DNA from: Candidatus Woesearchaeota archaeon | Lineage (GTDB): Archaea; Nanobdellota; Nanobdellia; SCGC-AAA011-G17; GW2011-AR20 | Direction: 5' to 3' | Length of the DNA stretch: 53,614 nt | Assembly (NCBI GenBank): GCA_016203115.1 | Contig: JACQNJ010000031.1 | Location: 1-53,614, forward strand | Part shown: positions 31,149-36,681 of the stretch, one piece after another | How the letters are laid out: each line of letters starts with the position of its first letter | Numbering within the stretch: the stretch's first letter is position 1 | Made by a program: the position numbers and the translations under genes | The notes under the pieces: generated by a model | Databases searched by the model: none | What the model saw: only the letters and a program-made list of their open reading frames with translations | Told to the model about the DNA's origin: nothing

Positions 31149-31252
31149 TGGGCCCGCTGTGATTTGAACACAGGACCCCTGCCTTATCAGACTCACTTTC
31201 TCCCACAAATATGGAAAAATGCAGTGCTCTAGCCAGGCTGAGCCACGGGCCC
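31149..31252 (-). tRNA. tRNA-Ile(GAT) with ~29-nt intron inside the 5' anticodon stem (~30/31)
   Basis: GGGCCCG/CGGGCCC + A73; D stem GCTC/GAGC; CTGC|ATTTTTCC...GTGAG|T CTGATAA GGCAG; T arm CTGTG-TTCAAAT-CACAG. Confidence 0.85.
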
Positions 31253-31522
31253 CTAAGAATAGGATTCTTTAACCAACTTTTTAAAGGTTTTGAACGTTAC
31301 TTTTAACAAATTTCCACTCTAATTTTTCCTGCACAAAAGCTTTTTATAGGTAGTATTTTTATCAAAATTATGCAAAATAAAAACCAACTACCCAAGATGA
31401 ACTTATTTCTATTTAGTTGGGGCTATCTTTATCATCATAGGTTTGCTTAAGGAAATTATTTTGCTTTAAGCCTTTTATTTTTAATCTTTATCTTCAGCAC
31501 TATAATCTCTTTTTTCACTAAA

Positions 31523-31849
31523 ATGACTCAAAAAATAAGACTATCCAACGGAGAACTAAAGAGCCTCAAAAGAGGCCTGATTTATCTAGCTAGTGCCAAG
31601 CTTACAAAAAAACAGAAGCAAACTCTGTTAATGGTAAGCAGTAAAGAGTTAGGTATAAACGCAACAGAGCTAGTTATCAATATTTCAAAAGAATTAAATT
31701 GTTCGCAATCAACAGCATGGAATAATCTTCGTTCTCTAAGGAATTTTGGTTTGATAGAATCTGGCTGTAAAGAAAACAAGGGTCAGAAAGTTACACTAAC
31801 CTCAGCAGGAGAATTAATCAACACGGAGGTAAATAAAAATGATATCTGA
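31523..31849 (+). CDS. Winged-HTH protein
   Basis: KKQKQTLLMVSSKELGINATELVINISKELNCSQSTAWNNLRSLRNFGLIESG. Confidence 0.65.
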   Translation: MTQKIRLSNGELKSLKRGLIYLASAKLTKKQKQTLLMVSSKELGINATELVINISKELNCSQSTAWNNLRSLRNFGLIESGCKENKGQKVTLTSAGELINTEVNKNDI

Positions 31850-33023
31850 ACGGTGGACTAGTGAAACAATTAAGGAATTGGATTTATCTGGAAATCGAGT
31901 AGAGAAGCCAGTAAGGTTTGTAGATATAGATGTAACATCTAGCTTTGCACACCTCACTCCAAATATCACAATAGACGAAGTACTAGGATACAGAAGAGCA
32001 TCTACTTTAGAACTTGCTACTGAAGAAAAAGCAATTATAATATTAATGGATTATGATGGAATAATCCCTTCTAGAGAAAAACCTTCAGCAGACACATTAG
32101 AAACTATCTTTAGAACAAATGACAAATCAAATTCTCCTCAAGTTCTTCTAAGAGACGATATACCAATTTCACTTCAAACTTTCGACAAAGAGATAATATT
32201 AAGAGAAATAGATAAAGATTGGAAAAGCATAATCAAGAACACTATATCTGGAAAAAAAGAGAGAATAATATTTGCAAATAGATTTATTGCACTTGTGGAG
32301 GCTATGGAATTATCAGCAGCCACATCTTCATCTGCATCAGAATTTTTGCAAGATTTAAGAAGAAGATTTCTTAGTATGCTTGAGATAAACGCATACCCCA
32401 TTCCTGAATCTACAGCACTTTCTCTATTCACCCAAAAATTACAAGAAGATTTGGAAGCGGGATTTCCATATTGGAAGATGCAGGTTCCTGAAAAATTTGA
32501 AGCTAAGCACAAATCTAACCAAGGAACATATTTAGTTTACGGCATATGTAAAAAAGGGGAATTAGCAAATGTATCTTTCTACGAAAACCCAGGAAGATTT
32601 GAATTTAACAGAAGAGAAGACGAAAGAGTTGTAATATTAGCAGAAGATTCAATACAAGCAATAGTAAAAAGAGAACTAATGCCCACTACCACCTTGTTAA
32701 ATTATATTGTCTTGAGCCCAGCAAGAAAGAAAAGAGATAATGAAAGAACAAAAAGAGTTCACATAGCTGGAAATTTTATGGCTGGAAGAAATGGTTATGC
32801 TTTGGAACTACTTCCATTTTTCAACGCAATACCTGGTTATGATGAAGTTAGTCTAGTTTGTACAGGCTATGACGGAAGATGTACTATAAAGGGCAAACAA
32901 AGAAATTGGATTGGTTTTGGTACAGTTTTTCCACACTTTGGAAAAAAAGGATTAGAGAAATATCTTGAACAAGAAGCTCCATTTAGCCTAGACAAAGGAA
33001 TAGTGTTGGGTGAAGAGATATGA
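31839..33023 (+). CDS. Hypothetical protein (394 aa)
   Basis: Long ORF overlapping the wHTH gene upstream and the DapF-like gene downstream. Confidence 0.65.
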   Translation: MISERWTSETIKELDLSGNRVEKPVRFVDIDVTSSFAHLTPNITIDEVLGYRRASTLELATEEKAIIILMDYDGIIPSREKPSADTLETIFRTNDKSNSPQVLLRDDIPISLQTFDKEIILREIDKDWKSIIKNTISGKKERIIFANRFIALVEAMELSAATSSSASEFLQDLRRRFLSMLEINAYPIPESTALSLFTQKLQEDLEAGFPYWKMQVPEKFEAKHKSNQGTYLVYGICKKGELANVSFYENPGRFEFNRREDERVVILAEDSIQAIVKRELMPTTTLLNYIVLSPARKKRDNERTKRVHIAGNFMAGRNGYALELLPFFNAIPGYDEVSLVCTGYDGRCTIKGKQRNWIGFGTVFPHFGKKGLEKYLEQEAPFSLDKGIVLGEEI

Positions 33024-33697
33024 AGACAGAACTATGGCATGGAGCTCATAACAACTTTGTAGTTATGTATTATGAGAAAGATGTTCCAAGATTAAAAAAA
33101 TGTAAGATTCAGGAAATGAATAGATATTACAATACAGACGGTTTGATACAGATAACAATCAAGAAAAATATTGTAATGAGATTCTTTAATCCAGATGGTT
33201 CTTTGGATAACTGTGGCAATGGACTAAGAGTTACAGCATCTTTTTGTTTTAAAAATAATCTCTGTAAAGATAAAGGGGTAATCGAATCACTAGGCCTAAA
33301 ATTCCCATTTTTGATTAAAAAAGAGGTCCCTAAGATATTTTTTAACAACTTTAAGAAAAAAGATGGATTGTGGTCAATAGGAAATGTTGTTCACAAAACT
33401 ATAATTGTAGAAAACTTCGAAAAATCTAAAAAAGTTGCAAAGTCGATTAGAAATAAACTAGACTGTAATGTAACAATAATAAAGAAACTAGACAAAGGAA
33501 TTTTCGCGCAAACATTTGAAAGAGGCGTAGAAAATTTCACAGCAGCATGCGGAACAGGAGCAATTGCCGCTTCATTGCAGACAAGAAAAAACAAGGTATT
33601 TATGCCTGGAGGTTTATTAGAGATAAGCAAGCGCAAAGGTTCTATAGCTCTATCGGGACCAACAAAAATGGTAGGATTAATTGAAAATGAAATTTAA
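33020..33697 (+). CDS. Diaminopimelate epimerase-like protein
   Basis: RFFNPDGSLDNCGNGLRVTASF and ENFTAACGTGAIAASL, the two catalytic Cys motifs of the DapF family. Confidence 0.85.
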   Translation: MKTELWHGAHNNFVVMYYEKDVPRLKKCKIQEMNRYYNTDGLIQITIKKNIVMRFFNPDGSLDNCGNGLRVTASFCFKNNLCKDKGVIESLGLKFPFLIKKEVPKIFFNNFKKKDGLWSIGNVVHKTIIVENFEKSKKVAKSIRNKLDCNVTIIKKLDKGIFAQTFERGVENFTAACGTGAIAASLQTRKNKVFMPGGLLEISKRKGSIALSGPTKMVGLIENEI

Positions 33698-34340
33698 GCC
33701 TAATTGTGTAGCGGATGAAGAATTAATGAAGATCCCAGTAAAAGAGGCTAATGAGAAATTAGTTAATTTAAGAGATTACAATAAAGATATCATAATAGAA
33801 ATAGAAGAAGAAAGTAAGAAAGCTCAAAATTTAAAAGAAAATGAATGTTTTGTAAGGGAAAGCGTTGCTATAATGTTATCTCAAGTACAATCTTTATTGC
33901 CAAAAGGAATTTGTCTTAAAATAATAGACTGTTATAGGCCCATGGAAGCGCAAAAAAGGATATATGCGCAGGTTTTCTCAGAGTTAAAAAACAAATTACC
34001 AAATCTAACAGATAAAGAGCTTGAAAAAGAAACAGACAAGTGGGTGGCTAACCCCAAAATAATCCCCCCACACACAACTGGTGGAGCTGTAGACCTTATC
34101 TTAGTAGACAAAAATTTGAAAGAACTAACCTTTGGCACTAAGATAAATGCAGTTTCAATAAAAGCAGCTACAGAATTTCCTTTTAAAAATGAAATAAAAA
34201 ACAACAGACTTTTTTTAATTAAGATAATGACAGAAGCAGGGTTTGTTAACTACCCCTTAGAGTATTGGCATTGGTCTTATGGAGATAGGATATGGGCATT
34301 TTATAAGAAAAAACATTTTGCAATTTATGATAGTATTTAG
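33681..34340 (+). CDS. D-alanyl-D-alanine dipeptidase-like protein (VanX/DdpX, peptidase M15)
   Basis: LKIIDCYRPMEAQKRIYAQ; PPHTTGGAVDLILVD; LEYWHWSYGDRIWAF. Confidence 0.85.
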   Translation: MKMKFKPNCVADEELMKIPVKEANEKLVNLRDYNKDIIIEIEEESKKAQNLKENECFVRESVAIMLSQVQSLLPKGICLKIIDCYRPMEAQKRIYAQVFSELKNKLPNLTDKELEKETDKWVANPKIIPPHTTGGAVDLILVDKNLKELTFGTKINAVSIKAATEFPFKNEIKNNRLFLIKIMTEAGFVNYPLEYWHWSYGDRIWAFYKKKHFAIYDSI

Positions 34341-34365
34341 AAAAATGTAACCGCCCTAACGGAGC

Positions 34366-34382
34366 TTGATACATCGTATCAA
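34366..34382. terminator. Perfect inverted repeat TTGATAC-ATC-GTATCAA between convergent genes
   Basis: Read directly; overlaps the LAGLIDADG gene stop; function uncertain. Confidence 0.35.
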
Positions 34383-35185
34383 TAGTAGGAATTAACATCA
34401 ATTGTCTCATCTAAAATCTTTTGTCTTTCAAGAATATTGGTATAAGGAGGACAAAAGCCAAATCTCTTCCAAATATCATATTTGGTTAAGTGCTTTGAAG
34501 AATTAAATCCAATTTCATTAAACCACATTTCTACATAGTTTTCCCCATAAATATCAATTTCATGTCTTATGAAAACTTTTCCATTTCTGCTACTCTCTGT
34601 ATCATAGCTCACGCAAGCTTTAATTTTACAATCATCTAAAAATGTTTTAACAGTTTTAATCAAATTTTTACTTTGACTAGCAACAGCAATGCAGGGATAA
34701 TAATGTTTTTGCCTATACCTTCTTTTAAAAGTCATACACCCTTCAGTGTCGAAAAATCCCATTAAAAAATACTTTTTAATTTTCATGCTAGACAATTTTA
34801 TTTTTTCTGGAACATTTATATTTCTCTTAGAACCATTAGGTAAATTTATGACTCTGTTTAAAAAACAAAACACGGCCTTTGACCTAAAGTAGGTTTGAAC
34901 GGTAGATCTATTTCCAAATCTAACAAATGCATCAATATTAAATAATTTCTTAATCAATGGAACAATGTATTCTTTGTGAAATTCTATCTCATCTATTTCA
35001 TGACCACAGCATTCAATATTATAATCAACCCTTTTACAAATTTTTCTTTTATAACAACGAAGATATCCATCTCCAACATGAATGCCAATAAAATAAGCCA
35101 ACTCTTTTGTCAAATAGGAAGGAATTGTTACTTGTCTTTTAATATCATTTTTACTATATTCTACTTTAGAAAGATCTAGTTTCAT
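34379..35185 (-). CDS. Freestanding LAGLIDADG homing endonuclease
   Basis: LAYFIGIHVGDGYLRC and YFLMGFFDTEGCMTFKRR (two LAGLIDADG-like motifs). Confidence 0.85.
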   Translation of the reverse strand: MKLDLSKVEYSKNDIKRQVTIPSYLTKELAYFIGIHVGDGYLRCYKRKICKRVDYNIECCGHEIDEIEFHKEYIVPLIKKLFNIDAFVRFGNRSTVQTYFRSKAVFCFLNRVINLPNGSKRNINVPEKIKLSSMKIKKYFLMGFFDTEGCMTFKRRYRQKHYYPCIAVASQSKNLIKTVKTFLDDCKIKACVSYDTESSRNGKVFIRHEIDIYGENYVEMWFNEIGFNSSKHLTKYDIWKRFGFCPPYTNILERQKILDETIDVNSYY

Positions 35186-35205
35186 ACTACTTATGATAAA
35201 ACTTT

Positions 35206-35261
35206 ATTTAAAAAGCTGGCGCGTGAAGTTGTCCGATTGACTAGTGAATGCGATATATATT
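35206..35261 (-). promoter_or_regulatory. Conserved ~55-nt element upstream of the LAGLIDADG gene (copy 1)
   Basis: Reverse complement ATATATATCGCATTCACTAGTCAATCGGACAACTTCACGCGCCAGCTTTTTAAAT matches 51610-51665. Confidence 0.65.
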
Positions 35262-35283
35262 TTAGAGAATATGTTAAAAGCCA

Positions 35284-35356
35284 CGCCCCGGAAGGGACTT
35301 GAACCCCCGACCTTTTGGTTAACAGCCAAACGCTCTACCAGCTGAGCTACCGAGGC
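35284..35356 (-). tRNA. tRNA-Asn(GTT), no intron
   Basis: GCCTCGG TA GCTC AGCTGGTA GAGC G TTTGG CTGTTAA CCAAA AGGTC GGGGG TTCAAGT CCCTT CCGGGGC G. Confidence 0.95.
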
Positions 35357-35394
35357 TTATAATAAACTATTTAAGAGACAATTTAAAAGAATTT

Positions 35395-35940
35395 CTATTC
35401 CTTTTCAATAATAACTTTCCCTCTTTTATTAGGCTTTATCTTTAATTTAGCATTTGAAAATTCATGGTAAAATTCTTTCCCTTCTTTCAACATATGCAGG
35501 AAAATAGCCAAAGCAGCAACTTCACTGTGTGGTTGATTCGTAACAGAAATATTGTAATCAGCAAGTTCATAGTATTCTGGCTCAACTCTCTCACTTCCTA
35601 AAATTATCAAAATATTTTTATAGATTTTAATCTTGGAAATTACTTTATCTAATAACTCTCCATACATTGTTGCATGCACAATCAAAAATCCCTGCTCCTT
35701 CCTCTTTTGAACGAACTTAACAGCATCTTTAACATAAAGAATTTCAAAATTTCCTCCAAACCTGTTAACAGTATTGTTTATGGAAGATTCAAAAGCAGTA
35801 TCATGATCTCCAGAATAGTAAACCTTGTCAGCTAAAAAAGCTCTTGCAGTCAAGGCAACATGCGAACTTAGCCTAGGATCCCTTCTTATCCTATGTGTCA
35901 ATCTTAAAATTTCTATCATAATTATTTGACAATGTAACAA
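35395..35940 (-). CDS. trm56: tRNA (cytidine(56)-2'-O)-methyltransferase
   Basis: IEILRLTHRIRRDPRLSSHVALTARAFLADKVYYSG; LIILGSERVEPEYYELADYNISVTNQPHSEVAALAIFL; start likely ~35919. Confidence 0.92.
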   Translation of the reverse strand: MLHCQIIMIEILRLTHRIRRDPRLSSHVALTARAFLADKVYYSGDHDTAFESSINNTVNRFGGNFEILYVKDAVKFVQKRKEQGFLIVHATMYGELLDKVISKIKIYKNILIILGSERVEPEYYELADYNISVTNQPHSEVAALAIFLHMLKEGKEFYHEFSNAKLKIKPNKRGKVIIEKE

Positions 35941-36027
35941 ATTATAAATCTTATTTTAACAACTCATATTTATAAAGTAGTAACAAATCCAAAAACTTTT
36001 TAAGATAATCACTTTTTCAATGAGCCT

Positions 36028-36681
36028 ATGACAAATCTCATTGTAGATATAAAACCAAGATTAATCTATTCAGCACATATCTATGCTCCTTTCGATAGAG
36101 GAAAAGAAGAATTGGAGAATGCAGTATACAAAATTATTTCTTTGCAAGAAAATGCTCAATTAAGAATGGAGGGAGGAAAAAATGCTTTTGTTTCTCAGAA
36201 TGGAAATTGGACAAGGGAGGGATTTATTTATGTCCCTAAAAGAGGTATTTTCTTAACCAGAAATTCTCCAATAATGGCAAATGCACAAGAAGCAACAGAT
36301 TGCCATAGAAATCAAAGAGAATTTTACTTAACAGATGTACAGGTTGAACAATCTTTAGTAGATTCTATTTTATTATCTGGTCAACCAATACCAACTAGCC
36401 GGTTTAGAGAATCTCCTATAGCTGTTTATGCTTTTGGAGATATAGCAGAACAGTATGGTCTATTTTTAAGAGGGATAAACCTAAAAGAAATGCCTATTTT
36501 ACTGGCAGATTTGCAAGACAGACCCTTTGCGAGGCAATCATGGTTTCGTAGGCTTGATGTGGGCAGCAGGTCTAGTCTTTACGGCAATTACAAAGACTTG
36601 GATGTTAGCCTTAGGGTCCGTGGGATACGTCAAGTTAACGAAGACACTGAAAAAAATCCGGGTTTAGTTAGCAAATTATAG
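36028..36681 (+). CDS. Hypothetical protein
   Basis: 217-aa ORF; no family recognised. Confidence 0.5.
   Translation: MTNLIVDIKPRLIYSAHIYAPFDRGKEELENAVYKIISLQENAQLRMEGGKNAFVSQNGNWTREGFIYVPKRGIFLTRNSPIMANAQEATDCHRNQREFYLTDVQVEQSLVDSILLSGQPIPTSRFRESPIAVYAFGDIAEQYGLFLRGINLKEMPILLADLQDRPFARQSWFRRLDVGSRSSLYGNYKDLDVSLRVRGIRQVNEDTEKNPGLVSKL

Follow-up and report, generated by a model that had tools for sequence, protein, structure and literature searches.

The D-cycloserine cluster brings together the racemase DcsC, an ATP-grasp protein and Ddl. VanX binds zinc through His116, Asp123 and His184, and VanX-type dipeptidases act on free dipeptides and not on the wall. The roles of VanX Arg71 and Glu181 are described in PMC5778951; the list of residues with which Haemophilus DapF grips the distal carboxylate of diaminopimelate (DAP) comes from PMC8225329, as does the description of PddB, a DapF-like diaminobutyrate racemase in which Arg209 is replaced by Val. 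The window, by which we mean the whole 53,614-nucleotide stretch of DNA analysed, is contig C20 of a 763-kb MAG (~89% complete) and carries at 31523-34340, on the plus strand, four ORFs with overlapping ends:

31523..31849, plus strand: wHTH protein, 108 aa, operon gene 1; weak family match only, no sensor domain seen
31839..33023, plus strand: 394-aa orphan family protein; ORF without Pfam or NCBIfam match
33020..33697, plus strand: DapF-superfamily racemase/epimerase, 225 aa; PF01678 at 2.6e-12, both catalytic cysteines present
33687..34340, plus strand: M15 (VanX-like) dipeptidase, 217 aa; PF01427 at 1.4e-18, zinc/catalytic site complete

Consecutive genes overlap by 11, 4 and 11 nt, the third overlap being measured from ATG 33687. 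The original prediction of one coupled operon of four overlapping genes holds, with all ORFs in place and the set co-conserved in relatives. The starts of the first three genes also stand, whereas the M15 start at TTG 33681 (219 aa) is probably two codons too early, and ATG 33687 (217 aa) is to be preferred because relatives begin at the matching ATG. Upstream lie metG and a divergent tRNA gene (31149-31252, minus), missed by the default tRNA scan, which bears a 29-nt intron and has an uncertain anticodon (the ARAGORN proposal is Ile tat). Downstream, the minus strand carries a LAGLIDADG gene and Trm56; the former (34379-35185), homing-endonuclease-like and immediately 3' of the operon, has no counterpart at the syntenic site in the same-genus genome G001 (contig C6) and could aid cassette movement or conversion.

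The DapF-like protein resembles PddB, DcsC, CntK and Fusobacterium HisR in its alpha-site residues and in two-cysteine, cofactor-free inversion of the alpha-carbon, which is predicted here. It differs from them in being shorter and in its pairing with an M15 protein and an orphan, and the window copy keeps the distal clamp; the Arg209-to-Val replacement of PddB is also found in the DapF-like proteins of the related genomes G015 and G007. The M15 protein has the same five catalytic and zinc residues as VanX and DdpX and no export signal, but it scores below the family cut-offs, stands without VanH and VanA partners and shares the motif HWSYGDxxWA with a wider bacterial group. Both VanH and the VanA/B ligase of Van resistance operons are absent from the window operon, and a single-family search gave no Ddl match in the genome (MAG ~89% complete). 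Like the D-cycloserine cluster, G007 has a DapF-type gene beside an ATP-grasp/Ddl-type gene; within the operons, where this comparison was made, the other D-cycloserine enzymes were not seen, and M15 and GNAT are present instead. A plasmid locus of Streptomyces sp. NBC_00015 (DapF, ATP-grasp, C39 peptidase, MurE-like) likewise has overlapping genes for a DapF-like protein, non-canonical and with a GVE insertion, and a Ddl-like ATP-grasp; unlike the window and G007, this locus is actinobacterial and without M15, and its ATP-grasp shares only 23% identity with the G007 protein. Other Streptomyces plasmid loci (L071, L073, L074) hold two methyltransferases, a phosphotransferase, fxlM (FxLD system) and overlapping GNAT and M15 genes.

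Distribution of the operon among relatives

The full quartet recurs in G015, a genome of the same order but a different family. Its genes there overlap by 8, 35 and 11 nt, and the protein identities to the window are 42% (wHTH, in the equivalent position at L015 1289-1591), 44% (394-aa protein), 52% (DapF-like) and 59% (M15). In G001, a copy near Trm56 (G001:C6) comprises a 394-like gene truncated by the contig end (62% identity), a 147-aa gene, DapF-like (82%) and M15 (88%). Conservation of the quartet, the neighbourhood comparison on which the original prediction had been made to depend, is therefore complete in G015 and partial, at a contig edge, in G001:C6. Between the window and G001:C6, dN/dS (NG86) is ~0.11 for the DapF-like gene, ~0.10 for M15 and ~0.16 for the 394-aa gene, at dS of 0.8 to 1.7; these genes are real and under strong purifying selection. 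The 147-aa gene, which separates the 394-like gene from the DapF-like gene (L014 7397-7840, minus), encodes an orphan without a family match, and between the cassette and Trm56 (L014 3325-5861) G001 has a 244-aa lipoprotein-like ORF and nucleotidyltransferase-like genes that are absent from the window. A second G001 copy (C45 ~32990-36186, L054) matches window positions 31360-34556 with one mismatch in ~3.2 kb and extends to the contig end, while the genes flanking this near-identical stretch are only 73-92% identical. Either the assembly is chimeric here or the sequence was exchanged very recently; we left this copy out as evidence, not counting it as independent.

Within the order, 4 of 103 genomes (G000, G001, G007 and G015) have the DapF-like gene, and among 145 relatives a close M15 relative occurs in the same four only, always in the same cluster; a fifth M15 match, in G095, was set aside as a different, weakly matching protein. 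The two genes are adjacent in the clusters, or one gene apart in G007. If two sets of four were drawn at random from 103 genomes, they would coincide with a probability of ~2e-7, or 6e-6 without the same-genus G001, with relatedness ignored. The 394-aa family was found in three genomes only, as three distinct sequences. These counts come from DPANN genomes that are mostly fragmented and incomplete, and at 89% completeness absence is weak evidence. The genome neighbourhoods of the G015 and G007 clusters are unlike that of the window. The DapF-like/M15 pairing is specific to these operons and not general across the phylum, and most other DPANN M15s of the wider group are missing a racemase neighbour. 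Searches of viral contigs found no M15 or DapF-like relatives, and phages gave no M15.

The G007 operon consists of a Ddl-like ATP-grasp, DapF-like, GNAT and M15 genes with gaps of 10, 15 and 1 nt, and the 394-aa protein is absent from it. Its M15 and DapF-like proteins do not resolve as sisters of those of the window, so the pairings may differ in function. G248, of the same class, has a further operon (L040 7831-10316) of a 341-aa orphan, an Asp/Glu racemase and M15, joined by a 4-nt overlap and then a 6-nt gap, which is another candidate D-amino-acid module. This racemase belongs to a family unrelated to the DapF-like proteins, and comparison of the 341-aa orphan with the 394-aa protein gave no detectable relationship. 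The G248 racemase scores close to the cysteate racemase CuyB. Other M15 genes have different company: a methyltransferase and a radical SAM/SPASM protein in the same direction in G283 (L042 8399-11179, minus), and a NodU-like carbamoyltransferase (identified from sequence) with an SGNH-like protein nearby in G235 and G174 (L039, L043).

The racemase, the dipeptidase and the orphan

Window-type DapF-like proteins are 221-227 aa long. The window copy carries DNCGNGLR and AACGTGA, both catalytic-cysteine motifs (CGN and CGT/SG) are present in all copies, and the alpha-site residues Asn11, Cys73, Gly74, Asn75, Glu208 and Cys217 are invariant. Against TIGR00652, the window (77.8 bits), G001:C6 (65.0) and G015 (81.3) copies all fall below the equivalog cut-off of 114.65; the G007 protein passes it (155.2 bits), and four canonical DPANN DapFs reach 256-331 bits. 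In a tree of 21 sequences with long branches, the window-type clade (100/100) lies outside the canonical clade of 14 (94/96). Window-type and G007 proteins have a one-residue deletion before Cys73 and a one-residue insertion before Cys217, the latter also present in Haloarcula, G103 and Streptomyces proteins. At the distal-carboxylate positions Asn64/Asn157/Asn190/Arg209, the residues are N/N/N/R in the window, D/K/N/K in G001:C6, N/N/N/V in G015 and D/L/H/V in G007. The window copy keeps every DAP-contacting residue tested except Gln44, where most aligned DapFs have Gly, and because those four distal residues are retained, DAP may be a substrate of this copy.

The lysA gene adjoins 9 of the 11 canonical DPANN DapFs examined (NCBIfam confirmed lysA in 9/9), whereas single-family searches of the window genome, in a MAG ~89% complete, detected neither DHDPS (DapA) nor a Mur ligase. 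The sole PF02784 match in that genome adjoins a deoxyhypusine-synthase-like gene, this neighbour being identified from sequence only. The earlier remark that no other lysine/DAP gene lies in the window also holds for the genome within the families searched (DHDPS, Mur ligase and Ddl), and no ordinary lysine pathway is detectable around the DapF homologue, DHDPS not having been detected. Judged by its sequence and setting, the window protein is probably not a lysine-pathway enzyme. The DapF of G103 (L112 4825-5664, minus), which has a GVEAET insertion, lies outside the canonical clade and away from lysA, passes the DapF cut-off and is perhaps another non-DAP racemase.

In the M15 protein, R86, H131, D138, E194 and H197 align to VanX Arg71, His116, Asp123, Glu181 and His184 and are invariant in the four cluster copies, so that the catalytic site, whose integrity the original prediction had required, is intact with its full zinc/catalytic set. 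The protein remains below both the NCBIfam VanX cut-off (33.7 bits against 320) and that of PRK10178 (73.2 against 176), and it groups with bacterial M15s sharing the C-terminal HWSYGDxxWA and not with those of G204 and G371. None of the four operon proteins has a signal peptide-like start or membrane segment (KD19 maximum <0.4, first 40 residues), and Pfam found no wall-binding domain in them. The lack of a recognisable export signal on M15 argues against an attack on bacterial walls.

For the 394-aa protein, singled out earlier as the unknown component, no match was obtained from Pfam, NCBIfam, PHROGs or the sequences of the PDB, viral contigs and plasmids held no relatives, and two AlphaFold runs on 3-row alignments (pLDDT 33.6 and 33.5) yielded no usable fold. 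Comparison with the 44%-identical relative shows dozens of charged and aromatic residues kept, together with Cys341 and Cys348, a pattern that looks enzyme-like. Visual inspection likened the C-terminal half to class IV aminotransferases and the N-terminal half to class I tRNA synthetases, but neither likeness was upheld by profile comparison. Weak matches in G077 (inside a Fic-like protein, as read from sequence) and in G106 and G132 (frames with stops) were dismissed.

A candidate D-amino-acid module and its rivals

Given the pairing of racemase and M15 and the ligase and GNAT of G007, we favour, at somewhat less than even confidence, a cytoplasmic module for a small D-amino-acid-containing compound, with salvage as the main rival. 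In this model, the DapF-like protein, with its intact two-cysteine chemistry, would invert the alpha-carbon of an amino acid, probably not diaminopimelate. The 394-aa protein would then activate, join or decorate that amino acid, a probable role read from gene position only, since its place in the operon matches that of the Ddl-like ligase and acetyltransferase in G007 or of the other orphan in G248. M15 would hydrolyse a D-residue-containing dipeptide or amide to edit, turn over or mature the product, and the wHTH protein would control the operon. Racemases of two unrelated families adjoin M15, which points to a D-residue in the M15 substrate, and the Ddl-like ligase and GNAT of G007 suggest that an acylated or peptide-bonded product is synthesised. 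The bacterial DapF-like/ATP-grasp and GNAT/M15 pairs, in small-molecule-like or modified-peptide-like loci, fit this module. A D-amino-acid function, as originally suggested, is the best reading of a co-conserved operon with complete M15 residues and no detectable lysine pathway. On a more specific proposal, speculative and rather doubtful, the 394-aa protein would be the first member of a new family of enzymes that form amide bonds or activate amino acids, and DPANN would pair it with a dedicated racemase for producing a D-amino-acid metabolite in a cell without a visible peptidoglycan pathway.

In the salvage alternative, which is possible though we think it unlikely, M15 would cleave bacterial D-Ala-D-Ala or other D-dipeptides and the DapF-like enzyme would convert the D- to the L-residue for an auxotrophic archaeon. 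The M15 site is complete, export signals are absent from both core enzymes, either of which could run in the salvage direction, and a cell in whose genome DapA, Ddl and Mur ligase were not found may have to import amino acids; since the window operon has no known ligase, a purely catabolic module is possible. However, a Ddl-like ligase that spends ATP is encoded together with an acetyltransferase in the equivalent operon of G007, a better fit to synthesis, and the two-step scheme leaves no obvious place for the 394-aa protein and finds no transporter in the operon. A relic or passenger cassette, moved horizontally and held together by mobility instead of joint function, would explain the patchy distribution and the differing neighbourhoods in G015 and G007, and a LAGLIDADG gene adjoins the window copy, of which G001:C45 holds a near-identical version; with purifying selection strong on the 394-aa, DapF-like and M15 genes relative to G001:C6 and overlaps kept across families, we consider this quite improbable.

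Two further explanations receive far less of our confidence. One holds that the operon serves an attack, secreted or injected, against bacterial peptidoglycan in the course of host interaction; in its favour, peptidoglycan hydrolases are known from archaea, prominently from Nanoarchaeota (PMC12352652). We judge it very unlikely here, as the four proteins lack signal peptide-like starts, membrane segments and wall-binding domains, M15 is closer to dipeptidases (PRK10178, VanX) than to wall-binding hydrolases, and the racemase would have no role. The link to peptidoglycan and a bacterial partner in the original prediction is accordingly not borne out: neither an export signal nor a Mur ligase or Ddl was found, a VanX-type enzyme implies free dipeptides, and the label 'peptidoglycan-related' came from family names, whereas the wider groups of both enzymes also occur in bacterial small-molecule-like clusters. 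That a shortened DapF serves ordinary DAP/lysine metabolism would agree with the DAP-contacting residues kept in the window copy, all of those tested but Gln44, yet it deserves hardly any credence in a genome without detected DHDPS or Mur ligase whose only PF02784 match sits beside a deoxyhypusine-synthase-like gene, for a protein that scores under the DapF cut-off, lies outside the canonical clade and has relatives with the same operon in which the DAP clamp is partly lost.

For short archaeal DapF-like proteins in general, a lysine-pathway annotation needs a check of context. If the D-amino-acid module is real, archaea with reduced genomes would keep a dedicated set of genes for D-amino acids without a wall to build, which would point to a small molecule with a role in signalling, as an osmolyte, in protection or in antagonism, and the racemase, dipeptidase and orphan would form a small, complete and testable set.
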